A stretch of DNA of 39,539 bases from a virus. The position numbers and the translations under genes were made by a program. How positions within the stretch are numbered: position 1 is the first letter of the stretch; each line of letters starts with the position of its first letter. Below are positions 984-36,579 of the stretch, in pieces. Below the pieces are notes generated by a model. The model searched no databases, was not told where the DNA came from, and saw nothing but the letters and a program-made list of their open reading frames with translations. The DNA is taken from positions 1 to 39,539 of the IMG/VR virus record IMGVR_UViG_3300044712_002664; one strand, written 5' to 3'.

Positions 984-1709
984 TTAAAAATATCGTATAG
1001 CCCTCACACAGGCCGTCCCATATTTATTACGATTTCGTTCAGTACCATCACTCATCCGTAAGTTGTGTGCTTCGTCGATATCGAACTCTGACGAAGACCA
1101 ATAAATCAAAGAGCCTATACCTATCGCGGTTTTATTAAGGTAAATTTTATCCAATTCGCTGGCGGTTGGTAGCCCCCAATCACTGTATCCTCCGCTTGAA
1201 TATTCATAACACGCCCTGGCGGCATAAGTTATGGATGAGCCTTGTATAGCATATATTTCATTTGTATTATTGATAGCCTCGCCAATAGAGCTACTTGTCG
1301 TTCCAATTAAAACATAACTTCCAGTAACCCACGAATAACTACAACCTAAATCGGCGCTTGATATGATAAACCCATGACATTCGCCTGAAATATAGCCGGG
1401 ATCGCCTGATTGAAAAATATAGGCGACAATTCCACCCTGAAAGCTATCACCTACTGAAGGGCATGTATAATGATAATTCCTGAAACCCATCATCGTTTTT
1501 GGATTCATGGTTTTGCTTCCATACGCAGGGTCAAAATAGTCAGCATTTGAGGCCGTAAAAGCATCCGACAGGTTTCCAGAACTGTGGCTGCCATAAACAG
1601 CATCCAAAACATCAAACAGACTAAATGAATCTGTATTTGGAACCACATTTGTTTGAGCCACCAGCCCAATCCATCCAAAAACCAACAATATCAGCAATTT
1701 ACTTTTCAT
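984..1709 (-). CDS. Exported DUF1566-like (Lcl C-terminal) protein
   Basis: Function unknown; the DUF1566 family has a C-type-lectin-like fold and is often found in surface or adhesive proteins. Seen: an N-terminal hydrophobic signal (KSKLLILLVFGWIGLVAQ), a low-complexity stretch of about 60 residues, then GDSFQGGIVAYIF, WGLPTASELDKIY, YWSSSEFD and a C-terminal CVRAIRYF, the usual DUF1566 landmarks. The start at 1709 gives the signal peptide directly; a longer start at 1739 exists. It overlaps the fibre gene by 11 bases and is the last gene of the leftward tail operon, so a host-binding role is inferred. Related proteins are DGR targets in other phages, but its 3' end does not match the template repeat of this window. 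Confidence 0.75.
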   Translation of the reverse strand: MKSKLLILLVFGWIGLVAQTNVVPNTDSFSLFDVLDAVYGSHSSGNLSDAFTASNADYFDPAYGSKTMNPKTMMGFRNYHYTCPSVGDSFQGGIVAYIFQSGDPGYISGECHGFIISSADLGCSYSWVTGSYVLIGTTSSSIGEAINNTNEIYAIQGSSITYAARACYEYSSGGYSDWGLPTASELDKIYLNKTAIGIGSLIYWSSSEFDIDEAHNLRMSDGTERNRNKYGTACVRAIRYF

Positions 1710-3390
1710 GGCGTTCAAGTCTTTTAATTCGTTTTTCAAGTTCTTTTATCCGCTCTTCCATTCGGGCCATCTTGCCAACGAGCAATTCAGTATAGTTTAC
1801 GGCCTTTAATCCGTTTGAATCTGTATAAACCAGCTCCGGGATTACTTTCTCAACTTCCTGTGCAATCACCCCGTAACGTTTTCGCTTTAACGAATCATCA
1901 CGCATGGTAAAACCATAAAATATGATTGAATCAAACCTGTTTTTGAAATGCAATGGCCTAATGTTTTCTTTTAATCGTTTGTCTGAAAGCTGAAAGTTTG
2001 AACCAGTTACTACGCCAGAAAATGTTGCGGTTGTACCATTTAATGCTCCCGTTAAAGTACCTCCAGATAGTGATAAATATGAGTGCGTGTGGGAACTATT
2101 GGCATACCTTCCATCTAAATTAGTTGACAGATCGGTTAATCCACTTCTTGTAATGGTCAAATTACCAGTCTGATAAGCAAACGACAACCCAGTTGTGTAA
2201 TTATTACCGTCTGCATATTGAGGTATATTTAATGTTGAGCCAACCAATGTTGCTGCACCTGATGTTCCGGTAGTCGTAAGTGATATATTGTTTTGTTTTC
2301 CATTTAATTCAGTATAAACTGAGCCACCATCTACAGGATTTGTATCACCAGAACTTATACTGCCCATTTGAAGTCCCATGTAACCAGCGGCAACCCAAAA
2401 ATGTGTCGGGTTAAATGACACATAATCACTCACAGTATTTAAATAAATTTTACCCATATTAGAGTAAGCAGTATTCCAATTCGCAGAATTATTGGTTATT
2501 GAAGTTCCCCACGCTGTACCTGTTGACACGGGTATTCCCGCCCCAGGGTAAACCATTCCTGCGGGCAGCGTTTGCCATGTTTTATCTCCTCTCCAATATT
2601 GTGCTGTTGTTCCACTTGAAATTACTGGTTCGTAAACTCCGCTATGATTATGGCCCGCACTTGCAAAATCGGTAGTTGCCGAATTAGCGGCGGTTCCAAA
2701 AGTTCTTCCCTCTAAAACCGTTCCTGTAGTTGTGCCAAAATTTTTATTAAACCCAGTATTTTTTGAAAATGCTGGTTCGTAAACACCGCTATGATTATGG
2801 CCCGCACTTGCAAAATCGGTAGTTGCCGAATTAGCGGCGGTTCCAAAAGTTCTGCCCTCTAAAACCGTTCCTGTGGTTGTGCCAAAATTTTTATTAAACC
2901 CGGTATTTTTTGAAAATGCCGGTTCGTAGTTCCCTGCAACCTGCGCCCCAACCTCTGAATAAGTATAAGTTGGCTTTGTACTTGCTTTCGCCCATGAGTA
3001 TATCGTCGGGTCAGTTTCAGTAAACGATGCACTCAATACTGCCGTAGTCGGGTTGATGCTTAGGTTTGTCCCCACCTTTATACCGCCTTTTACTGTCGCG
3101 CTTGCCGTTGGCAGAACATACCCTCCATGCCCGGCATAATACCAGGGCGACCACGTTGGATTTGCTATTGGCCTAAATCGTACACTGTCGGTTTTATAAT
3201 CGGCATAAAGCAGCAATTCTTTGTGGATCGTGTCGCCCTTCCAGTAAAAAGTATTGTCTGCCTGAAGCCATTTAGTTGTCCATAACCCGTAATATTTACC
3301 GGGTGCATAATTCAGCCAACCGCTTTGTGCCATTGTTGAAACGGCATTTAAACACAGTAAAAACAGTGTTATTAAAATTAACTTTTTCAT
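1699..3390 (-). CDS. Tail fibre with C-terminal S74 chaperone domain and a signal peptide
   Basis: Probable receptor-binding fibre. Seen: signal-like N-terminus (KKLILITLFLLCLNAVSTMAQ), fibre-like Gly/Thr/Asn-rich sequence, two identical-looking 49-residue repeats ending in SAGHNHSGVYEP, another ANSSHTHSYLSLSGGTLTG segment (typical phage-fibre GGTLTG motif), and a C-terminal intramolecular chaperone: SDKRLKENI, then FRYGVIAQEVEKV-like sequence and a charged coiled coil (EERIKELEKRIKRLE). The S74 chaperone usually trimerises the fibre and then cuts itself off at the Ser of SDKRLKEN. The ATG at 3390 overlaps the upstream stop as ATGA, suggesting translational coupling. A Sec signal on a virion fibre is odd; see findings. 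Confidence 0.85.
   Translation of the reverse strand: MKKLILITLFLLCLNAVSTMAQSGWLNYAPGKYYGLWTTKWLQADNTFYWKGDTIHKELLLYADYKTDSVRFRPIANPTWSPWYYAGHGGYVLPTASATVKGGIKVGTNLSINPTTAVLSASFTETDPTIYSWAKASTKPTYTYSEVGAQVAGNYEPAFSKNTGFNKNFGTTTGTVLEGRTFGTAANSATTDFASAGHNHSGVYEPAFSKNTGFNKNFGTTTGTVLEGRTFGTAANSATTDFASAGHNHSGVYEPVISSGTTAQYWRGDKTWQTLPAGMVYPGAGIPVSTGTAWGTSITNNSANWNTAYSNMGKIYLNTVSDYVSFNPTHFWVAAGYMGLQMGSISSGDTNPVDGGSVYTELNGKQNNISLTTTGTSGAATLVGSTLNIPQYADGNNYTTGLSFAYQTGNLTITRSGLTDLSTNLDGRYANSSHTHSYLSLSGGTLTGALNGTTATFSGVVTGSNFQLSDKRLKENIRPLHFKNRFDSIIFYGFTMRDDSLKRKRYGVIAQEVEKVIPELVYTDSNGLKAVNYTELLVGKMARMEERIKELEKRIKRLERHEK
2627..2920 (-). repeat. Two tandem 147-bp repeats inside the fibre gene
   Basis: Units 2627-2773 and 2774-2920 are nearly identical, differing at only a few bases (for example ttccc/tgccc). 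Each encodes a 49-residue unit beginning EPAFSKNTGFNKNFG and ending SGVY. A third, partial copy of the first residues follows on both sides. The low divergence indicates a recent duplication. Confidence 0.9.
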
Positions 3391-5783
3391 ATATTCATGT
3401 TTTTGGTAAAGCAATATTCAATTACAATTCCACTAAGGCTTTCGCTTGCATCGATGGTTAATTCAAAACCGTCAACTAATCCGTCCGCGTTGGTCGTAAA
3501 CGCAAAGCTGTGCCATAGCACGTTTTGATCCAATATTAATCCGGCTTCAGGCTGAACAGTACGGTAAACATGCAGCGATCCGCGCCCAACAGGCGGCGTA
3601 TCGAACGGGAAATCGAACTCATGTTGCACGCTGGCCGAAACCAAACCGGTAATGATACCCGACTGCATGGCTCGCAGGTATATCCGAACAAAACCATCAA
3701 GTCCCTGTATGGCAACAAAATCATCATCGGCCATAAAGCCGGGACTTGATACCAATACCCCTTCGTCGCTAATCACATTTACCCGATGATCGATGCTATC
3801 TGGCTTTGTTGGGGTACTTTTAGCTCCATCAGTAGACTTCTCCTGGTAGTCAACTGAAGTGACCACCGACGCTTGTGTCAGATCAACCGGAAGCATCTCA
3901 ATCCATCGGCCATCTATGGCCTGGTAGCGGTCGTCATAACTTAAACCACACTCTATAAAATACTTTCCTGCATTATTCGGATCAATAACTATAAAATTAG
4001 TCCCCGGCATAATATCGGCAATACGTGCATTATAGCTTTGGCGTGGTGTACGCCGCGACGATGCTGCTATACGTGCGATAAAGTCAGCAAAAGCATAAAC
4101 TGTTGTGTCCCCAACAACTTTCCAGCCTACTGTGGCGGTATTATCCGACCGGGTAATGCCACCCTTAAATAAAATCAGTTTATTCGGGTTATCCGGAAAA
4201 TCACCGATAAGCAGCGAAACATCTTCAGGTATAAAATTATTGCGGGTGGAAACGGTTGCTTCTAAGGTCTGATTGGTTGGATAGCTGTCGTTATTATCAT
4301 CGAGCAAACTGGTAGAAAAAGAGTCGTAAGCTACACCAACTACATTCGTATCGCTCGACATCGCGCCGTAGAGATAAATTTCAATGGACCCATCTTCGGG
4401 AATACCAAGAACTGAATCAGAAAAAGTTTCGAAATGATCTGGTATTTTCCAGGAAGGCCATGCATTTACTTTATCAATAGCTGGGTAATACAAACCAGCC
4501 GGGTCTTTTGCCGCGTGAAATTTATAGTGAACAATTGGCTTGTACGCTCCTCCCATATCTTCTACCCAAACCAGACTTAGCACATTATCGACCGAGCCAA
4601 ATTCGGGCTGTAAAAAGTAGGTTTTAGTAGCTGTTATCAGCTTAATGCGCATAAAAACATTGCCCGACGAGCCTTCGCCGCCAACCAGCGCATATTTAAC
4701 ATTGAACTTCACTGCTCCATCAGTAGCTTTTACATCGATGGAATTGATTATATATTGATTCGAAACATAGTTTACATCGTGGTTTACGCGGCCTTCAATA
4801 ATTATAAACTTATCTCCATCGGCATTCAGTTGACGGGCAAGTATATTGACGTTGTTGCGTGTCCATCCCGTAAGTTCAAGCGAACCCGTCAAAGGCGAAG
4901 GGTTGTCGGAGTAAATATAATCGGCAAACGAACCATTATTAATCAGGTTCGATACATAGCCAAAATCCTGTTTTACTGATAATTTTTTTACGGCTGGCAG
5001 TATTTCCATGGCCGATTCGCCTTCAAACCAAAATCCGGTAGCGACAGGATCAACACTATCGACCGACGACGAACCACCGGCAGTATCTTTATAAAATGAG
5101 AATGTTGAATGGCCAATGGTATTCGCTAATATCCACCACTCGCCTTTGCGCTGAAACACGCGACATTCAGGCAGCAGTTTTTCAATCACTTCGTAACAGC
5201 TTAACCCCAAATAGATGTCACAGTCAACCTTGTGAACCTTCAGAATATTGGTTGATTCGGCCTGACCAGTTTCCTGCCAGTTAATAGCTGTGTTTACGGT
5301 CAGGTCAAGTCCCGTTTTCAGCAAACAAATCTTCAGGATTTCGAACATCGTTTTACGGCCCGTGTAATCGTCGCCAGCATCGTCGGTAAAATCAATATCT
5401 TTCAGGAAGCCAAGACCATCGTAGGCCGTGCATTGCACCGGGTAAGGAGTTGCAATCAATGGCTCAGTCCAGCTATCTGGTTCAATGTAACCGCGCCAGA
5501 ACATATTGCCGCCCTTTTCAATCTCAACCAAATGTTTGCGGGCATCGGCTGAAAAAAGATACAAGTATTCATAATCGAACTCCGAATCGAAAAAGATGGT
5601 ACACGACGAACCATATACCAGTGGCATAGCTTCGCTGCCCTGATCGCCCCACTCAGCACGAAACCCCGCATGCGCATAACGAACATCAGCCGATCCCGAA
5701 TAACCGTCCTGGTAGATGTTAATGCGCGTCAGTACATCTTTGATGTCGTTATATTCAATGCGAAGGCGAAGCCCGTAAGCCAT
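3387..5783 (-). CDS. Large tail-tip / hub-like protein
   Basis: 798 residues without an export signal, between the tape-measure side and the fibre genes, so probably part of the tail tip or baseplate hub. Seen: an N-terminus beginning MAYGLRLRIEYND followed by TRINIYQDGYSG and FFDSEFDYEYLYLFSADARKHLVEI, GNMFWRGYIEPDSWTEPLIATPYPV and CTAYDGLGFLKDIDF, a pattern I associate with Bacteroidota siphophage tail proteins in which an N-terminal hub-like part is followed by long beta-rich regions. No catalytic motif was recognised. Its stop overlaps the fibre start (ATGA). The assignment rests mostly on size and position. Confidence 0.65.
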   Translation of the reverse strand: MAYGLRLRIEYNDIKDVLTRINIYQDGYSGSADVRYAHAGFRAEWGDQGSEAMPLVYGSSCTIFFDSEFDYEYLYLFSADARKHLVEIEKGGNMFWRGYIEPDSWTEPLIATPYPVQCTAYDGLGFLKDIDFTDDAGDDYTGRKTMFEILKICLLKTGLDLTVNTAINWQETGQAESTNILKVHKVDCDIYLGLSCYEVIEKLLPECRVFQRKGEWWILANTIGHSTFSFYKDTAGGSSSVDSVDPVATGFWFEGESAMEILPAVKKLSVKQDFGYVSNLINNGSFADYIYSDNPSPLTGSLELTGWTRNNVNILARQLNADGDKFIIIEGRVNHDVNYVSNQYIINSIDVKATDGAVKFNVKYALVGGEGSSGNVFMRIKLITATKTYFLQPEFGSVDNVLSLVWVEDMGGAYKPIVHYKFHAAKDPAGLYYPAIDKVNAWPSWKIPDHFETFSDSVLGIPEDGSIEIYLYGAMSSDTNVVGVAYDSFSTSLLDDNNDSYPTNQTLEATVSTRNNFIPEDVSLLIGDFPDNPNKLILFKGGITRSDNTATVGWKVVGDTTVYAFADFIARIAASSRRTPRQSYNARIADIMPGTNFIVIDPNNAGKYFIECGLSYDDRYQAIDGRWIEMLPVDLTQASVVTSVDYQEKSTDGAKSTPTKPDSIDHRVNVISDEGVLVSSPGFMADDDFVAIQGLDGFVRIYLRAMQSGIITGLVSASVQHEFDFPFDTPPVGRGSLHVYRTVQPEAGLILDQNVLWHSFAFTTNADGLVDGFELTIDASESLSGIVIEYCFTKNMNI

Positions 5784-18564: not shown

Positions 18565-18960
18565 ATGAAAAATTCTAATCAAAATGTTGAAGTACAAGCT
18601 GAAGTTGTGGCTGAAGAAATCACCGAAGTAGCTAACGAAGATACCAATCTGAAAGCTCCGGAAGAAACTGAAGTTGAAGAGTCCAACGATGCAGTCTCAG
18701 AAGAAACTGAAGTTGAAGAGCCTAACGATGCAGCCGCAGAAGAAACTGAAGAGGTGAAAGTTGAAGAGCCCAACGATGCAGCCTCAGAAGAAACTGAAGA
18801 AATAGAAGCTGAAGAGCCGGTTCTTAAAAAGAAAGAATTAAAGGTAAATCACTTTCAGCTTCCCGAAGACCTGGTAAAATTTTTTAATGAACACAATTTA
18901 AAACTTGTGGCAATTGTAGCCTTCGACCGCTTCCATGCATTGTATTATTACGAAAAATAA
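18565..18960 (+). CDS. Acidic repeat protein in the head operon
   Basis: 131 residues. About two thirds is an acidic Glu/Thr-rich stretch containing imperfect units of roughly 15 residues (EETEVEEPNDA with variants), visible in the DNA as repeats between 18661 and 18815. A conserved-looking basic-hydrophobic C-terminus follows (KELKVNHFQLPEDLVKFFNE, then LVAIVAFDRFHALYYYEK). Function unknown; place between terminase and gp36-like protein is that of Mu-like 'head' small proteins. The acidic run may be expanding or shrinking by slippage. Confidence 0.6.
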   Translation: MKNSNQNVEVQAEVVAEEITEVANEDTNLKAPEETEVEESNDAVSEETEVEEPNDAAAEETEEVKVEEPNDAASEETEEIEAEEPVLKKKELKVNHFQLPEDLVKFFNEHNLKLVAIVAFDRFHALYYYEK

Positions 18961-25344: not shown

Positions 25345-26550
25345 TTAAAATAAACTTGGCATACTTGACTTATCTTTAAATATTTGAGTAAATTGTTTTG
25401 TCGCTAGAGGTTCAGTTCCATCCCATCTTTGAGGCCAAATATTATTTTTCCAATGCCATTTTATGCGTTCAAATTCTTCTTGATTAAGAAAGTCAATTGG
25501 CTGTTTACCTTGATCAATAGCCATAAGGTTTATTTTTGTCTGCACCTCAAATATTCGATCTGTAAAATGTTTCCTAGCATCCATTGTTAACGGTCCAACC
25601 CGAAAAGGATTCTTGGAAAGTTTACCGTCGTTGTTGGTTTCACCGTGTTTTCTGAGTCGATGTTCAAATAATCTCATCTCTCTGTAAATTGGCCGTAATT
25701 CTTTGATTGGTTCGATGTATCCCCATTCATCCGGATACAGTTTTAAAACAGAATCGAGTGCCGTATCATGATCTACAAGCGGGCAACCGTTGCAACCGGT
25801 TCTAGCATTTATCTCATTGGCTTTGTCACCACCATAAGCTTGTGCTAACATTCTGGTATCCCAGCCTCCATATTTCTTTTGTGGAGCGAAGTACATTAGC
25901 CAATCCCAAACGTTACAAACCCGCCAATGAATAATTGGGGCAATGGTAGCAGTTACTTTGTTGTCTAATGTATTCATATACCAACCTTGACCACATTCTG
26001 CACCGTTCTTTGTGCAAGCCATAGTCAAACGTCCATCTCTTATTGCACTTTCGCCCATCCTGACGCCGGTGATTGTTAGAACTTTTTCTGATCGGGTTTC
26101 AAATTCTTCCGATATAGCCTTTTGCATCGGCCATATCTTGATCTGATCTGTACACCATCGCATAGTATTGCTAGGTGGCGGAACTCCACGTCCTAACATA
26201 TACACGAAAAACCGGTGATCAATGTCTGTTTGTACAACCTGAGTTTTTAACCACGGAAAATTTAAATCGTTTATTTGTTTGATTAATTTGGCTGCGGAAA
26301 TAGCAAGCGGTGGAAGCTCCATCCTGGTATCTGCATACATTACAGTCAATGTTTTCGGCTGTGGAATTTGCCCGGAAAGGATAAGATAAATAACTAGGGT
26401 CATCGTAGCAGTTGAATCCTTTCCACCTGACCACGCTATAACCCAGTGTTTATGACTATATGCGTATGCTTTTAGTGATAGAATTGTCAATTCCTGGCAC
26501 TCACCAACGCTTATTTTTTGAATCCCAAATAAATTTGATGTTTGTATCAT
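25345..26550 (-). CDS. DndC-like / PAPS reductase-type ATP pyrophosphatase
   Basis: 401 residues. Seen: the PP-loop SGGKDSTATM at residues 41-50, MYADTRMELPPL, TMRWCTDQIK (Cys133), and two later cysteine pairs at 179/186 (MACTKNGAECG) and 253/256 (TGCNGCPLVD) that could ligate an Fe-S cluster, as in DndC. DndC-type enzymes activate or cleave ATP and hand sulfur to DNA in phosphorothioation; relatives in phages have no proven function. No dndB/D/E partner was found in the window. Its start overlaps the next gene by 4 bases, so it belongs to the early operon. Confidence 0.85.
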   Translation of the reverse strand: MIQTSNLFGIQKISVGECQELTILSLKAYAYSHKHWVIAWSGGKDSTATMTLVIYLILSGQIPQPKTLTVMYADTRMELPPLAISAAKLIKQINDLNFPWLKTQVVQTDIDHRFFVYMLGRGVPPPSNTMRWCTDQIKIWPMQKAISEEFETRSEKVLTITGVRMGESAIRDGRLTMACTKNGAECGQGWYMNTLDNKVTATIAPIIHWRVCNVWDWLMYFAPQKKYGGWDTRMLAQAYGGDKANEINARTGCNGCPLVDHDTALDSVLKLYPDEWGYIEPIKELRPIYREMRLFEHRLRKHGETNNDGKLSKNPFRVGPLTMDARKHFTDRIFEVQTKINLMAIDQGKQPIDFLNQEEFERIKWHWKNNIWPQRWDGTEPLATKQFTQIFKDKSSMPSLF

Positions 26551-27958: not shown

Positions 27959-28270
27959 CTAAGTAAACATGTATCTGTCATTCTCTTCAACAATAATAGT
28001 GGTAAACGGAAACCCGGTTTCGGGTATCTTTTGTATCACCTCAATCAATCCGACCGATGAAGTAAAAACAACATGTTTCCGGTTATCGAACGATATTTGA
28101 AGGTGAAGGCATTTTCCCGATCCTTTCTCCTGGAATGATTTAACTTTCGAATCTTCCAGCTTGAAATGATGTACAACGATCTCACGGTTCAGAATCTTCG
28201 ACATTTTTATTTTATCGCCTTCAAACGACTGGCTCTCTATTTTAATGTTGAATTGGCTAAATGAATTCAT
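27959..28270 (-). CDS. Small protein overlapping the RT stop, possible DGR accessory
   Basis: 103 residues, MNSFSQFNIKIESQSFEGDK, predicted mixed alpha/beta, no membrane segment. Its start overlaps the RT stop by 4 bases (ATGA), so it is probably translated with the RT. I recall similar small proteins in other Bacteroidota phages but know no function. It is not the usual Avd protein (a four-helix bundle) judging by composition. Confidence 0.6.
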   Translation of the reverse strand: MNSFSQFNIKIESQSFEGDKIKMSKILNREIVVHHFKLEDSKVKSFQEKGSGKCLHLQISFDNRKHVVFTSSVGLIEVIQKIPETGFPFTTIIVEENDRYMFT

Positions 28271-29217
28271 GCGAGTAATTTTTTCATGAGGTTTTTACTG
28301 TTACAATGCGATGCCCACCCGTTATATGAAGCAATTGATTGGGCATTACGCCGCTTTTTCAGCATGCGGGCAAAGCGTTTTTTGATGTTTTTCCGGAGAA
28401 GTACGTGTGTGTGCCGAAAGACATAACCAACAAAGTCAATGCCGCGATCTTTAACAGGGAATAGTTGATAATTACCTTTTAATTCGAGCTTCAGATTGTC
28501 ATGTAAATAAATTCTTATATCGGAAAGTATTTGGTGCAAATAAGGCTTGTTTGAGGCCAGTATAACCAAATCGTCGGCATAACGGAAATAATATTTTACT
28601 TTCCGGTCTTCTTTAATCCAATGATCGAAATAAGCGAGGTAGAAGTTTGCAAAATACTGGCTCAGGTAATTACCAATTGGAAGTCCAACGGTGCTGTCTA
28701 TGATCTCATCAAGCAACCATAGCAGATCGTTATCTTTAATTTTACGGCGAAGTAAGTTTTTTAGAATTTCGTGATCAATCGAAGGGTAAAACTTTTTGAT
28801 ATCGAGCTTCAGACAATAGCGGGTATTTTCAATATCGGTTAAAGCACACTTCATCGCTTTTAGTGCGGCATGTATCCCACGGCCCTTAATACAGCTATAT
28901 GTGTCATTGGTAAATGTTGAAACAAAAACAGGCTCCAGTATATTCATTACCGCATGGTGGGTAATACGATCGGGGAAGTAGGGCAAACGGAAGATCAGGC
29001 GTTCTTTGGGTTCGAAAATTGTAAATGTAGTATATGCTGACGTCCGGTAAGTTTTGTCGCGTAGCATTATATGCAGTGCCTGAATGTTTTGTTCGCGGTT
29101 CCGGTCGTGCTGAATGACTCCTGGCTGATTCAATTTTCCCTTTCGGGCAATTTCATCGGCCAGTTGCAGGTTTTCGATGCAGTAAATTTTCTGATATAAG
29201 TTATTTATTCGTTTCAT
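28267..29217 (-). CDS. DGR reverse transcriptase
   Basis: 316 residues; makes mutagenic cDNA from the template RNA. Seen: LKLDIKKFYPSIDHEIL (residues 136-152) with the catalytic Asp139, VGLPIGNYLSQYFANFYL (177-194) where the usual PQG is replaced by IGxxxSQ as is typical of DGR RTs, and YFRYADDLVIL (210-220) with the YADD active site. The C-terminal thumb region (KDRGIDFVGYVFRHTHVL) is present, and the basic C-terminus is complete. It starts 102 bases after the template repeat, giving the order target, target, template, RT. An AAAGGA lies directly before the ATG. Confidence 0.95.
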   Translation of the reverse strand: MKRINNLYQKIYCIENLQLADEIARKGKLNQPGVIQHDRNREQNIQALHIMLRDKTYRTSAYTTFTIFEPKERLIFRLPYFPDRITHHAVMNILEPVFVSTFTNDTYSCIKGRGIHAALKAMKCALTDIENTRYCLKLDIKKFYPSIDHEILKNLLRRKIKDNDLLWLLDEIIDSTVGLPIGNYLSQYFANFYLAYFDHWIKEDRKVKYYFRYADDLVILASNKPYLHQILSDIRIYLHDNLKLELKGNYQLFPVKDRGIDFVGYVFRHTHVLLRKNIKKRFARMLKKRRNAQSIASYNGWASHCNSKNLMKKLLA

Positions 29218-29318
29218 TCCTTTGCTTTTTAATGAGTCGTTTTCTCTTTACAAATACCAACGCCCCGTTAAACATTCGTTATTTTTTGCACTGTTGGCAA
29301 GGTTTACACCGCAGAATA

Positions 29319-29399
29319 GCATAGGTGAGAGCTGACAGTCGTATTCGTGTTATCGTAGTTGTAATTCGAATTCGAAAAACTGAAACCGGAAGACAGAAC
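29319..29399 (-). repeat. DGR template repeat (TR)
   Basis: The 81 bases align without gaps to VR1 (29513-29593) and to VR2 (29934-30011). In the coding direction it reads CTG TCT TCC GGT TTC AGT and continues through AAT TAC AAC TAC GAT codons; translated it is N/Y/T-rich (NSNYNYDNTNT). Differences from the variable repeats are at A of this strand: 15 of 16 for VR1 and 15 of 15 for VR2. The segment lies in the noncoding gap between the second target gene and the RT, as in most DGRs. Confidence 0.93.
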
Positions 29400-29431
29400 T
29401 AGCAGCATCGCAGTGTACAACCTGTTTTATC

Positions 29432-29848
29432 TTATTCTGAATACAACAAAAAGTCGCGATATTCAGACTCAAATTGCACAGCTATGTACATGGCCTTTTC
29501 GCTGGTATCAACGCAAAGGCGAGAGCCGACAGCCGTACCCGTGCCATCGCAGCCGTCATACGAACGCGAAAAACCGAAACCGGAAGACAGAACCTCAAAC
29601 CAGGGATAGTATTTGTATTGATCCCAATCGCTCCAATCTGGCTTCCATCCGTTATTTATAGCTTTATAAATAACCAGGAGTTTATAGTAAGCCACAACAT
29701 GCTTTTTCATTTCTTCGGGAATCATGGATACGTCGGGCAATTGTTGCGGATCAATGTTCTCTTTAGCGCAGGCGTCTTCAAAGGTTTTGATTGATCTGAA
29801 ATCAAATTCAATCACTTTATTTTCTTCGTTTGCTGATTTTGTAGTCAT
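29432..29848 (-). CDS. DGR variable protein 1
   Basis: 138 residues. Seen: INNGWKPDWSDWDQYKYYPW just before the variable repeat, then VLSSGFGFSRSYDGCDGTGT, AVGSRLCVDTS and a helical tail (VQFESEYRDFLLYSE). The variable residues sit in the short GFGF...GSRLC window, so the binding site is probably there; the fold is expected to be C-type-lectin-like as in other DGR targets, but this was not shown. No signal peptide or membrane segment, no fibre features. A paralogue lies immediately upstream (4-base gap). A ligand is unknown. Confidence 0.9.
   Translation of the reverse strand: MTTKSANEENKVIEFDFRSIKTFEDACAKENIDPQQLPDVSMIPEEMKKHVVAYYKLLVIYKAINNGWKPDWSDWDQYKYYPWFEVLSSGFGFSRSYDGCDGTGTAVGSRLCVDTSEKAMYIAVQFESEYRDFLLYSE
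29513..29593 (-). repeat. DGR variable repeat 1 (VR1)
   Basis: Aligned to the template: AGT to GGT, AAT to CGT and TAT, AAC to GGC (twice), TAC to TGC, AAT to GGT, ACT to GCT, AGC to GGC, CAC to CGC, CTA to CTT, plus one T change (TAC to GAC). Unchanged bases are almost all non-A, as expected for adenine mutagenesis. Confidence 0.92.
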
Positions 29849-29852
29849 AATT

Positions 29853-30320
29853 TTATTTTTTAATGGTTAAAAACTGTTCGTAAATTTCAATGAATTGCTT
29901 TGCTGCAAAATTGCTTTTGGCTTCAGTTTCAAAGCAAAGGCGAGAGCCGACAGCCGCACCCGTGCTACCGTAGAGGTAACCCGAATACGAAAAACCGAAA
30001 CCGGAAGACAGATTAAACCACGGCCACCACTTTTGTTGATTGTTATTGCTCCAATCCGGAGTCCAGCCCTGGTTGATAGCCTTAACAACCATTTTTAACA
30101 TCCGATATGCCCATTCATCAGTCGATTCTTCGTCCGAAATTTTCAGATAGCCTTTGGTATGTCCGGTTTCTTCTGCCGCATCTTCAAGCGTTTTTATGTC
30201 CTCAAAACCTCGTTTTGCAAAAGTTTCTTTACCAAAGTTTTCTACAAGTATTTCCTGAAACCAGACCGGAGCTTCCGGATAGATTTTTTTTGCTGTTGAT
30301 TTTTGAATTGTTAATCCCAT
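29853..30320 (-). CDS. DGR variable protein 2
   Basis: 155 residues, paralogue of the protein at 29432-29848. Seen: MGLTIQKSTAKKIYPEAPVW, a charged helical part, then AINQGWTPDWSNNNQQKWWPW and the variable window NLSSGFGFSYSGYLYGS, TGAAVGSRLCFETEA, ending in a helix (AAKQFIEIYEQFLTIKK). The block GWxPDWS...PWF is common to both. No signal peptide. First gene of the DGR. The function of the pair is unknown. Confidence 0.9.
   Translation of the reverse strand: MGLTIQKSTAKKIYPEAPVWFQEILVENFGKETFAKRGFEDIKTLEDAAEETGHTKGYLKISDEESTDEWAYRMLKMVVKAINQGWTPDWSNNNQQKWWPWFNLSSGFGFSYSGYLYGSTGAAVGSRLCFETEAKSNFAAKQFIEIYEQFLTIKK
29934..30011 (-). repeat. DGR variable repeat 2 (VR2)
   Basis: All 15 differences from the template within 78 bases are at template A positions, e.g. 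AAT to TAT, AAT to GGT, AAC to CTC, GAT to GGT, AAC to AGC, ACG to GCG. It shares with VR1 the 3' changes ACT to GCT, AGC to GGC, CAC to CGC and CTA to CTT. Confidence 0.92.
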
Positions 30321-33014: not shown

Positions 33015-33635
33015 TTATTTGTTTGATAGTCCCCAATAATCGTTTGCTTTTTCTTCGCTTATGTCGATGTATTCTCCACCTCCGTACCGGCCAACAGGGA
33101 AGGCCCTGAAACCTTCGATTCGAAAAGCGCAGTTTGCATCGCGCCAAATATTCTGCGCTACTTTTCCGTCGGGCTTTCTTCCGTCGGTATGAGAAACATA
33201 AATGAATAGTTTGTGTGGAAATTCAGCTTTCAGTTTTTTATAGTCGGAAAAACGGATGCCCCAAAACTGAATGGTATCGATAACTACCACATGCGGGCTT
33301 TTATGAGCCGATAAACGTTCGCGAAGCTCATCAGCCGATTCGTTGGCAACCATGATAAACTTACCATGTACATCGGCCATGTTGGTACGCGAATAAGCCT
33401 CCTGAATGGATAATGATAATCCTTCCTCGACGGCATTGTAAAGGATGCGCCCCCAATTGGTCAGATATTTCGTTAATTCCATGGTGAATGATGTTTTACC
33501 GTTTTTTATGTCTCCAAAAACTATCCATGTACCGCAAAATTCGGGGCAACCAACAGCGTCTTTCCATTTTCCGGCGAATGGTAAAACCTTGAATTTTGCA
33601 TCGAGAACATTCTTTACAGAATAGGCTCGCTTCAT
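33015..33635 (-). CDS. RecA-fold ATPase
   Basis: 206 residues. Seen: Walker A FGDIKNGKTS at residues 40-49 and Walker B HVVVIDTIQFWG with Asp120, then PHKLFIYVSHTDGRKPDG, a pattern like RecA/DnaB-type (KaiC/RadA-like) ATPases. Length is short, so only the ATPase core is present. It overlaps the MuB-like gene by 4 bases and may assist in replication or transposition. A specific activity cannot be named. Confidence 0.75.
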   Translation of the reverse strand: MKRAYSVKNVLDAKFKVLPFAGKWKDAVGCPEFCGTWIVFGDIKNGKTSFTMELTKYLTNWGRILYNAVEEGLSLSIQEAYSRTNMADVHGKFIMVANESADELRERLSAHKSPHVVVIDTIQFWGIRFSDYKKLKAEFPHKLFIYVSHTDGRKPDGKVAQNIWRDANCAFRIEGFRAFPVGRYGGGEYIDISEEKANDYWGLSNK

Positions 33636-34516
33636 TTATTTTTAGTTAGTTCGTTGTATATTCGTCGTAATGAGGGGCGGCCATCTTCGCCCATTGTGTT
33701 GCGCAGTATCATACCGTGATTCGATCCTTCAGGAGCGTTGGCTTTAATAATCATAGTAGCGGTGGCTTGCAATAGTTTTCCACCTTCGTCGCTTCCGGAA
33801 GGGATTACTTTGCCGTATCGTTTGCCAAAACGGCTGAAAAGTTCTGAAAAACCTACTTTATGGTAGTTGATTGAATTACGCATGCGGGCTTCAAGTCCGT
33901 CGGCTCCCATCATGTAAAAGCTGCAAAAAGGTGCAGTAGCATTCCATAGGGCCTTTATCTCCAACAATGCGGTATAATCCAAATCACCGGCTTCGTCGAG
34001 TACAACCTGGGGAGTGATTAAACTTTTCAGGTAAAAAACAAGATCCTGGTAAACTTCGGAGTAACGGCCTGCGCTTCCCACTCCAAAACCCTGGGCAATT
34101 GCCCGAATCAAACGCTGTTTGCTTTTAACCTGGCTGCAATCGATGTACACTGAATTTTTGTTATTCCGGCAGTAATACATAGCGGCGTAAGTTTTGCCAA
34201 TGTCGCTTAAATCGACCAGCATAGAGCTCAATCCCTGGCGTTGGCATACGTCTAACTGAGTGGTTATAAACTGGAAGACTGGAGTATTAGCCGTTTGCCA
34301 TGCCGCGCGGTTATTCAGGCTTATATTGAAGTGGCGACCCAAACTAATCCATTTGGCATCGGAAAGTACCTGGTCGGTTTCTCCTTTTTTAATTCGGGAA
34401 TAAATGGAATTGTTAATTCCGATTGATACAGAAAAACGGGTATCGGAACCTGAGAAGTTAGCGCGTGAAACGGCTATCGCTTCTACTACCTTGATTTTAA
34501 ATTCATCTGTGATCAT
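33632..34516 (-). CDS. MuB-like transposition ATPase
   Basis: 294 residues; in Mu, MuB delivers target DNA to MuA. Seen: an N-terminal DNA-binding helix-turn-helix region (about residues 1-65, with INNSIYSRIKKGETDQ), a degenerate Walker A VDLSDIGKTY (GKT at 107-109, first Gly of the loop replaced), and Walker B PQVVLDEAGD (Asp174, Glu175). A sensor-like SFYMMGADGLEAR follows. It directly follows MuA, as in Mu. Confidence 0.85.
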   Translation of the reverse strand: MITDEFKIKVVEAIAVSRANFSGSDTRFSVSIGINNSIYSRIKKGETDQVLSDAKWISLGRHFNISLNNRAAWQTANTPVFQFITTQLDVCQRQGLSSMLVDLSDIGKTYAAMYYCRNNKNSVYIDCSQVKSKQRLIRAIAQGFGVGSAGRYSEVYQDLVFYLKSLITPQVVLDEAGDLDYTALLEIKALWNATAPFCSFYMMGADGLEARMRNSINYHKVGFSELFSRFGKRYGKVIPSGSDEGGKLLQATATMIIKANAPEGSNHGMILRNTMGEDGRPSLRRIYNELTKNK

Positions 34517-34530
34517 GATTGTGAGTTTAA

Positions 34531-36579
34531 TTAGAGTGAATCAATTGCTTTAGCTGCCCAATCGTCGTAGTTAAACTCATCGGCTTCGTATCCGGTGGGT
34601 TGCACGGTTTCGGGAACTATAATGGTTTCTGTTTCGTCAATCTCTTTAGCCTGTTTGGCGTCCATACTGCCTACAATCGGAATGTCGGAACGGCGTTCGC
34701 GTATCATTTTATCGAATTTAGCGAGGCGTTTTTCCTGGTGAAGCATTCCGGCAGCATCGTCGTCGGTACGTTCAATCTTACATTCGTTATAGGCCCATTG
34801 TATTTTGTTATGCGCTTCGCACAGGTAAGTGTCGCCCTGGTATAGATAAGCGGTAAGGCAAGTGCCATCCTGTTCGGGCATCCAGTAGGCGTTAATGCTG
34901 GTATTGTTTGGTTTTAGCCGGTTAATGGCTGTATAGTCGGCAATCTCGAAACGCTCGTTGTTTATCCAGCACCAGTCGTTATTATTCAGGCTCGTTTCGG
35001 TAACATTGCCAATAAATTTATACAGGTACCAGTTTTCAATCTGTTTAAGCGCCGGGTTAATACGTTGCATCAGCACATCGCGGCGTGTCATTCCTGGGTA
35101 AGTCTTTTGTAAGGGGTGCAGTTCGTTGTTGTGTTTTACCACGTCGGCCAAATCGTCGGCGACAATGGTTTGAGGCTGTAATTTGTCGGCTTTAAAATTG
35201 TTAGTCTTAATCGTTCCGTTCAGGAGCTTATCCGATTCCTTACCTTCAATTACATAGTCGCCATTTACTTTATTGCGCACACTTCGGTAGGCTTCGTGTC
35301 CGGCATACCAACGCCCGCGCGTGTGGCCTTCGTTTTTCGATACTCCATATTTAAAAGCCTTAATAGCATGCTCGGCGCGTTTTTCGGTAAAACTTTCACA
35401 GAACCGAACAAAAGGAAACAACTCATTCAGCCAACTGATATCCTGCATGAGGTGGTATTCAACTTCCAGTTCGCCAGGCATCGGCATGTTTAATTCGGCC
35501 AGTTCGCAAAACATGTTGCGGAACGATTCGATAACAGTGTTTGCCGTTGGTTTACCAACCACATAGGCCGGGCGGAACCAGTAACCGCTAACCACATCAA
35601 CAGCAATGTATTTATAAACCCATCCGCGAACACTCTGGCGACTCATGGCCACGTCATCCATCGAAATTTTACTCAATGAGAAGGCTCCCAGTTTGCGCTG
35701 ATGCTTTGGCCGTTTTTTATTCATGTAATCGAAGTTTCCGTTACGGTCGGTGTAAACTGAGGTATTATTAATTTCGTCTTTCAGGTAATTCCATACAGTT
35801 GCTTCGCTTACTTCCATTGCCCGGCCTTTATGCCTGAAGTCGGAAGGGTTAAATATTTCGCCAGTTGTGCGGTCGTGAAGTTCTTTCGATCCGGAAACGA
35901 ATTCGAGGTAACGCTGATGAACTGTTGTAACGAATGGCTTATCGTATGTGCGCCATAAGGCTAAAAACAAATTCTCGATTGAGGTAGAAACTTTGCGGCT
36001 GTTGTCGTTACCCTGGTTGCCGTGAATAAGACTGTCGTAACCGTCTTTTAAATAAGTTTTAAAAACCCTTTCAAGACTACGTGAATTGCTTATGCGGGCG
36101 CATGGGTATTTTATTAATTGTTGATTATACCAGTCAACAGCCTGCTCCCAAAATTCGCCCATTTTAATACGCTTACCGGCTTTAGCGCGGGCGGCTTGCT
36201 GCATTTGCAAACCTCTGCGTAATCCGTTCAGTATGCTGGCCCGGTTGGTGTACTCTTCAACGGCATCAACTTCAAGCGGTGCACCGTCGTTTTTCCTGAA
36301 TGTCAAATAATAGTCGCGGGCCTTAGTGTCAATTTGTACCGAATAAGTTGGTAATACCTTAGCCGGTTGATCTACTTTTCCAAATGCAGCCTCAATAATG
36401 CGTTTCCGGTCGGGTCGCTTTATCGAATGAACATCGATCATTGTGTTACCATTGATTGACCGGTGAACGATTTTGAGAAAACCGCGCTTTGAGTCGTGTT
36501 CAAATTGACTTCGTGTAAATCCGAGATTAATCCAATCGTTTACAGAAATTGCAACCGTATTGTCAAGAGTTTGGTACAT
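34531..36579 (-). CDS. MuA-like DDE transposase
   Basis: 682 residues; joins phage ends to target DNA. Seen: an N-terminal DNA-binding part (residues 1-80, ISVNDWINLGFTRSQFEHDS), a catalytic core with SMDDVAMSRQSVRGWVYKYI (first Asp 308 or 309) and AVDVVSGYWFRPAYVVGKPT, and the third acid in FTEKRAEHAIKAFKYGVSKN (Glu403), followed by the typical GRWYAGHEAYR. The central Asp is not obvious; PGELEVEYHLMQ stands where it is expected, so its identity is inferred. Ends with an acidic C-terminus. Confidence 0.92.
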   Translation of the reverse strand: MYQTLDNTVAISVNDWINLGFTRSQFEHDSKRGFLKIVHRSINGNTMIDVHSIKRPDRKRIIEAAFGKVDQPAKVLPTYSVQIDTKARDYYLTFRKNDGAPLEVDAVEEYTNRASILNGLRRGLQMQQAARAKAGKRIKMGEFWEQAVDWYNQQLIKYPCARISNSRSLERVFKTYLKDGYDSLIHGNQGNDNSRKVSTSIENLFLALWRTYDKPFVTTVHQRYLEFVSGSKELHDRTTGEIFNPSDFRHKGRAMEVSEATVWNYLKDEINNTSVYTDRNGNFDYMNKKRPKHQRKLGAFSLSKISMDDVAMSRQSVRGWVYKYIAVDVVSGYWFRPAYVVGKPTANTVIESFRNMFCELAELNMPMPGELEVEYHLMQDISWLNELFPFVRFCESFTEKRAEHAIKAFKYGVSKNEGHTRGRWYAGHEAYRSVRNKVNGDYVIEGKESDKLLNGTIKTNNFKADKLQPQTIVADDLADVVKHNNELHPLQKTYPGMTRRDVLMQRINPALKQIENWYLYKFIGNVTETSLNNNDWCWINNERFEIADYTAINRLKPNNTSINAYWMPEQDGTCLTAYLYQGDTYLCEAHNKIQWAYNECKIERTDDDAAGMLHQEKRLAKFDKMIRERRSDIPIVGSMDAKQAKEIDETETIIVPETVQPTGYEADEFNYDDWAAKAIDSL

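Follow-up and report, generated by a model that had tools for sequence, protein, structure and literature searches.

A diversity-generating retroelement with two tandem targets in a Mu-like phage, and the cassette family to which it belongs

Diversity-generating retroelements (DGRs) of phages have so far been taken mainly as diversifiers of tail adhesins, and most characterised phage DGR targets are indeed tail proteins (PMC8144416). The DGR of Bordetella phage BPP-1 (mtd, avd, template repeat (TR), brt) acts on one tail fibre target, and its structured spacer between the TR and the reverse transcriptase (RT) recruits the RT-Avd complex and primes cDNA synthesis (PMC12875486). DGRs with several variable repeats (VRs) are common (28.6%; PMC6642488), and in the Bacuni and tentaclin phages one TR serves two targets, both described as C-lectin adhesin-type proteins (PMC8143477, PMC10743442). 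Hankyphage, a Mu-like Bacteroides phage, has a single large target open reading frame (ORF) of more than 2200 residues with a C-type lectin domain and a small ORF near the RT described as Avd-like (PMC6199706). Non-structural second targets, with a suggested role in conflict, have been reported near methylases and a tRNA ligase in Quimbyvirus (PMC8008677) and near counter-defence genes in four gut prophage species (PMC12629997); these came together with a tail target, which left their role open. Here we describe a DGR in the 39,539-bp IMG/VR virus record IMGVR_UViG_3300044712_002664 (the window, meaning this whole stretch of DNA), which is best explained, with a probability of about 0.8, as the intact DGR of a transposable Bacteroidota phage with paired targets outside the tail.

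The minus strand of the window holds, in this order, two target genes (T2 and T1), the TR, a structured RNA, the RT and a small gene, orf103 (Table 1), a complete DGR with two tandem targets whose identity as a DGR we regard as practically certain. It shares with BPP-1 the target-TR-RT order, adenine-specific differences between TR and VR, an asymmetry of the 3' repeat ends resembling that of IMH and IMH* (IMH, initiation of mutagenic homing) and a structured TR-RT spacer, and with Hankyphage the setting of a transposable Bacteroidota phage. It differs from BPP-1 in having two small non-tail targets, in which the VR is followed by about 27 further codons, and in carrying orf103 downstream of the RT with no detected Avd-like gene. 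As in the Bacuni and tentaclin phages, one TR serves both targets.

An earlier sequence-only reading of this DNA had placed two targets, a TR and a DGR-type RT in order on one strand, and its arrangement and counts largely hold on realignment. TR and VR1 differ at 16 of 81 positions, 15 of them at template adenines and the other a T>G change (binomial p=9.5e-9, with 20 A in 81), exactly as counted before; TR and VR2 differ at 15 of 79 positions, all at template adenines (p=1.1e-9), where the earlier figure of 15 in 78 was one base short in length. Apart from that T>G change the mismatches are confined to adenines, as claimed, rather than spread evenly over the four bases. The repeats have 20 template adenines in common. 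Each VR is altered at 15 of these; the two sets overlap at 12 sites, eight of which carry the same new base in both VRs. A scan of both strands of the whole 39.5 kb without preset VR positions returned exactly VR1 and VR2, on the same strand, which excludes a hidden third VR in the window; its tail genes contain none. Ordinary divergence of tandem paralogs and a pseudogene copy, with no retrohoming, would fit the paralogy of T1 and T2 and the shared base at 8 of 12 doubly changed sites, but is refuted by the confinement of mismatches to adenines (p about 1e-8 and 1e-9) and by near-identical contigs of relatives, which show 0/60 to 0/64 non-A changes against 9-13 changes at A sites; its probability is very small.

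Across the wider cassette family, 246 TR/VR pairs show core non-A mismatches near zero and 17-20 varying template adenines, as well as flanking template adenines that are fixed to another base in the VRs. On the 5' side this sentinel change is A>G (164/166), and on the 3' side A>G (224/225), A>G (221/221) and A>T (175/178). The window carries the same fixed changes, CAG>CGG near the 5' end and CAG>CGG, CAC>CGC and CTA>CTT at the 3' end, which make up four of the 15 adenine changes in each VR (three at the IMH end). Because these shared changes are family-wide fixed differences between TR and VR, the true diversification sites in the window are 16 template adenines, of which 11 are changed in each VR; the earlier figure of about 15 of 20 changed adenines per repeat was numerically right, but four of each 15 are not products of mutagenesis. 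The 3' ends read GTCGGCTCTCGCCTTTGC in both VRs against GTCAGCTCTCACCTATGC in the TR, an asymmetry fixed across the family, and the IMH-like motif is nearly invariant, an invariance set partly by the search pattern. We infer that the converted tract ends at or before the sentinel sites, which may keep the TR from being a recipient.

The family was assembled from 80 IMG/VR loci (L001-L080), with RTs 70-87% identical to that of the window, and from 52 loci found by scanning GTDB genomes with orf103 alone. Most of the loci extend no more than 6-10 kb on either side, such that tail genes were scanned fully in the window and in part of the relatives. Nearly all IMG/VR loci have two VRs about 800 and 380 nucleotides upstream of the RT start, a TR about 190-100 nucleotides upstream of it, and T2, T1, RT and orf103 in the same order as in the window. 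Mostly the same cassette occurs in the GTDB loci, which belong to Prolixibacteraceae, Chitinophagaceae, Sphingobacteriaceae, Flavobacteriaceae, Weeksellaceae, Spirosomataceae, Cyclobacteriaceae and Ignavibacteria. Altogether about 120 relatives carry the cassette in the order T2, T1, TR, structured RNA, RT and orf103; prophages of Niastella, Pedobacter and Apibacter (L160, L162, L194) are among the relatives. At least two VRs are present in 110 of the 119 loci having a TR, and no VR was found on the opposite strand in the 1.5 Mb searched. All 245 of 245 VRs fall inside ORFs of the T family (phrog_11581), a count that shows consistency and not independent homology, as the hidden Markov model behind it was built from the same proteins without the VR; independent tblastn matches with the window's T1 and T2 cover most loci. 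One locus (L170) has homologs of RT, T1, T2 and orf103 and no detected TR/VR pair, and is possibly a diverged or dead cassette. Contig DMSQ01000040.1 carries two DGRs about 40 kb apart (L155 and L203), one a T1/T2 cassette and the other with an RT at 50% identity, an orf103 homolog at 36% and a single tail-type target.

Close relatives record diversification in progress. Between L013/L015 and L014, 9 of 25 A-sites of VR2 differ, with no change at 60 other VR sites or in 945 nucleotides of the RT, and 20 differences in the 315 nucleotides downstream of the RT. L040 and L045 differ at 12/22 A-sites of VR1, 0/64 other VR sites and 1/945 RT nucleotides, and L043 and L044 at 13/22 A-sites of a third repeat, VR3, 0/61 other VR sites and 0/945 RT nucleotides. 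The TRs of L004 and L017 are one base from the window TR in the aligned core, and their VRs differ from the window VRs only at template adenines, except at the single T>G of the window's VR1. Since the differences between near-identical relatives fall almost entirely on template adenines of single targets, the family is very probably active, varying at T1, T2 or T3. The sequence-only reading had proposed that both repeats are or were active targets and looked to related strains for variation at template adenines; both VR1 and VR2 vary in this way in close relatives. Features that go beyond that reading are the fixed sentinel sites, the structured RNA in the TR-RT spacer, the accessory gene, the non-structural character of the targets and the conservation of the arrangement among Bacteroidota phages.

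Neither T1 nor T2 matches a domain in Pfam, NCBIfam or PADLOC, no N-terminal signal sequence is recognisable by eye, and both are devoid of a tail-attachment domain. The AlphaFold model of T1 has helices flanking the VR on both sides and a low-confidence VR (predicted local distance difference test (pLDDT) 52-57), and a search of BFVD with T1 returned seven uncharacterised phage proteins with E<1e-3. In hhalign comparisons the T-family VR lies in register with C-lectin tail VRs over 25 columns (E=0.0023, but probability 13%). In gut phages the T family shares its TR with tail adhesins, which argues for a VR hairpin like that of C-lectin tail adhesins. In a quick tree of T1 and T2 made without the VR columns, with many forks unresolved, 82 of 87 T1 proteins fall in one group holding only five T2 (21 label changes against 70 when shuffled), from which we conclude, on sequence grounds, that the duplication is old and that both paralogs have been retained. 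T2 has a median of 41 residues before the IKTF motif and T1 has 16; T2 looks the more ancestral of the two, since it keeps an N-terminal segment that weakly resembles that of the LoVEphage T protein (E=1.4e-4). The targets are not ordinary host genes: none of 295 further genomes taken from across the phylum contains phrog_11581, and in five carrier genomes checked the matches lie within DGR loci.

The same protein family serves as a distant second target in gut phages. In Versailles (Bacteroides), PV4-TP1 (Phocaeicola), LoVEphage, BT-TP2 and the crAss-like cr53_1, a T-family gene carries a VR of a distant TR beside the RT, and this TR also serves an RT-adjacent VR, in a tail protein where annotated. 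These T proteins are homologous to the window family outside the VR (E 1e-22, 3e-20, 3e-16 and 1e-6). Comparing two LoVEphage genomes (OY731433 and MW660583), 20 of 25 template-A sites of the T gene differ, against 0/85 other VR sites and 0/475 positions in the rest of the gene. The Versailles and LoVEphage homologs, both in early regions, are therefore not static non-DGR genes, as each holds a VR of the distant tail DGR. The neighbourhood of the T gene in LoVEphage and PV4-TP1 (methylases, tRNA ligase) resembles that described for Quimbyvirus, and the gut-phage T family is apparently the kind of second target reported there, the Quimbyvirus ORF being likened by description only. Like Quimbyvirus and the double-VR gut prophages, the window has a hypervariable protein that is non-structural and is encoded in counter-defence surroundings. 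In those phages a tail DGR has this protein as its remote second target, whereas in the window the T family is the sole target, present in two copies and in cis. The annotation of LoVEphage and PV4-TP1 also places a PAPS-reductase-like gene close to the T gene. In the window a DndC-like sulfurtransferase/PAPS-reductase family protein (25345-26550, minus strand; TIGR03183 E=2e-40, below cut-off) adjoins the DGR module.

The window is, on its gene content, a transposable (Mu-like) phage, because it encodes a MuA-like transposase, a MuB-like ATPase, a Mu F-like head protein and structural genes including portal, head protease and tape-measure protein. Its closest chromosomal cassettes are in Prolixibacteraceae metagenome-assembled genomes (orf103 83-90% identical, RT 81-83%), which points to a host that belongs to this family or is close to it. 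As the most likely role, we posit that T1 and T2 work in the cytoplasm as binding proteins whose C-lectin-like hairpins are randomised, and that they would serve conflict between phage and host (counter-defence or superinfection control) rather than host attachment. This role, to which we give even odds, is proposed because the proteins show no recognisable signal sequence, their genes sit in the early/DNA-metabolism operon, and their family supplies the non-structural second target in gut phages. Were T1 and T2 instead virion proteins, such as tail-tip or spike receptor binders, the DGR would switch host range as in BPP-1. The prevalence of tail proteins among characterised targets, the register with C-lectin tail VRs and the sharing of one gut-phage TR between a tail adhesin and a T gene all speak for such a function. 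It is nevertheless unlikely, if far from negligible, as the T genes sit among MuA/MuB-type, methylase, RecT-like and helicase-like genes in the window and its relatives and in early regions of Versailles and LoVEphage, the T proteins carry no tail-attachment domain, and the window's own tail genes hold no VR.

Several observations weigh against an intact DGR with paired non-tail targets. The early-operon location of T1 and T2 is compatible with presence in the virion. T1 has no fold match in the PDB and its VR fold is modelled with low confidence, and the PDB fold matches of orf103, which include OB-fold proteins (HIN domains, RPA, TOP3B-TDRD3), are not significant. The window's exact TR core has no match in IMG/VR and the collections hold no near-identical sibling, so that the window's own activity would follow from relatives with 70-87% identical RT. 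A conserved inverted repeat or hairpin just 3' of the VR, as in BPP-1, was not found among 176 VRs (stem score 6.0 against 5.7 shuffled), a test that could miss a weakly conserved hairpin. The last two points could also be read as decay, in which duplicated targets are left from past activity of a DGR now inactive in the window phage. We consider decay very improbable, given that the RT, TR, both targets and orf103 are all intact, that the VRs differ in relatives whose TR is nearly that of the window, and that close families vary today.

The RT matches phrog_1423 (E=7e-127) with its catalytic YADD intact, and its best phage matches are RTs from tail-target DGR cassettes. No match to an Avd-like Pfam model was found among neighbouring genes from 26.5 to 32.1 kb. 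In place of the four-helix bundle of Avd that marks BPP-1-type DGRs, the locus has orf103, modelled by AlphaFold as a five-stranded barrel with strands in the order of the oligonucleotide/oligosaccharide-binding (OB) fold (pLDDT 89). Identity of orf103 in aligned relatives is 33-90%, and in a search with its own patterns every match for which the preceding sequence is long enough follows immediately on a DGR RT. Its other matches in the phage collections come only from the archaeal viruses vir525 and ANMV-1, where they too adjoin the DGR RT on its downstream side, and we therefore rejected the idea of a general phage protein. The homologs in ANMV-1 and vir525 (31% and 35% identity) accompany single tail-type targets and RTs just 37-41% identical to that of the window; a figure legend in the ANMV-1 paper labels an Avd ORF. 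Judging from this linkage, orf103 is probably a DGR accessory.

The spacer between TR and RT encodes a conserved structured RNA with two covarying helices. Both-side changes occur in 7 of 10 pairs with 96% of cells paired, and the covariation score was reached in 0 of 500 shuffles and lies above all slid controls. Rfam RT-17 (RF03020) aligns to the window spacer at full length with 24.2 bits, below the gathering threshold of 40.4, and to seven further loci (L067, L075, L048, L078, L196, L046, L015) with sub-threshold scores of 27.2-39.0 bits, always in the TR-RT spacer. By analogy with BPP-1, the window spacer may recruit the RT and prime cDNA synthesis, and RT-17 RNAs in general may be DGR spacers. 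RT-14 matches the spacer of one locus (L078) at 39.7, below its gathering score; only the names of RT-17 and RT-14 tie these Rfam RNAs to reverse transcriptases.

Taken as a mechanism, the RT would copy the TR RNA, with its structured 3' spacer, and the resulting cDNA would bear mutations opposite adenines; the partner that binds nucleic acid for the RT would probably be orf103 instead of Avd. The cDNA would then replace the matching stretch of T1 or T2 between the fixed 5' boundary and the IMH-like 3' boundary, while adenines at the sentinel positions would spare the TR itself. The DGR is of a known kind; what is new in the window family are the exclusive, paired non-tail targets and the RT-linked accessory gene. 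No description of orf103 or of the exclusive paired T-family arrangement was found in the literature searched, where an earlier naming is possible, also for the spacer RNA. More tentatively, and with somewhat less than an even chance of being right, we propose a DGR lineage that solely diversifies paired intracellular anti-defence or anti-rival proteins, with OB-like orf103 for Avd, as a compact five-part cassette in phages and prophages across Bacteroidota and Ignavibacteria. If true, this would amount to a randomised, pre-made binding repertoire inside the cell. A cassette whose sole target is non-structural and duplicated in old paralogs separates this function from that of tail targets and makes its role directly testable. 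The orf103 family, which DGRs of archaeal viruses also have, and the spacer resembling RT-17 are a candidate accessory factor and priming RNA for DGRs in which no Avd has been detected.

Table 1. Positions of the retroelement components and transposition genes in the window
Feature	Position	Strand	Details
orf103, RT-linked accessory candidate	27959..28270	minus	103 amino acids; phrog_19665; starts in RT stop codon; predicted OB-like beta-barrel
DGR-type reverse transcriptase	28267..29217	minus	316 amino acids; phrog_1423; RVT_1; YADD active site; LPIGNYLSQ motif
Conserved structured RNA between TR and RT	29218..29304	minus	covariation; sub-threshold full-length Rfam RT-17 (RF03020)
Spacer RNA helix 2 (covarying)	29266-29260 with 29240-29234	minus	
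Spacer RNA helix 1 (covarying)	29299-29296 with 29290-29287	minus	
Template repeat (TR)	29319..29399	minus	last 18 nucleotides (29319-29336) IMH*-like, GTCAGCTCTCACCTATGC
Target gene 1 (T1)	29432..29848	minus	138 amino acids; phrog_11581 family; ortholog in relatives
Variable repeat 1 (VR1), inside T1	29513..29593	minus	last 18 nucleotides (29513-29530) IMH-like, GTCGGCTCTCGCCTTTGC
Target gene 2 (T2)	29853..30320	minus	155 amino acids; phrog_11581 family; longer N-terminal segment than T1; ortholog in nearly all relatives
Variable repeat 2 (VR2), inside T2	29934..30012	minus	last 18 nucleotides (29934-29951) IMH-like, GTCGGCTCTCGCCTTTGC
MuB-type ATPase	33632-34516		phrog_296 E=2e-23
MuA-type transposase	34531-36579		phrog_310 E=8e-17

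Elsewhere in the window, a tail-end protein (984-1739, minus strand) with an Lcl/DUF1566-like C-lectin C-terminus (adhesin_Lcl E=7e-8, phrog_4245) is of the type typically targeted by DGRs, yet has no match to the window TR. A 571-amino-acid tail protein (1699-3414, minus strand) contains a tandem repeated segment (YEPAFSKNTGFNKNFGTTTGTVLEGRTFGTAANSATTDFASAGHNHSGV) and has a C-terminus that, judged by eye, resembles a peptidase S74-type chaperone. A 131-amino-acid protein with acidic EETEVEEPNDAA-type repeats is encoded between the terminase and head genes (18565-18960, plus strand).

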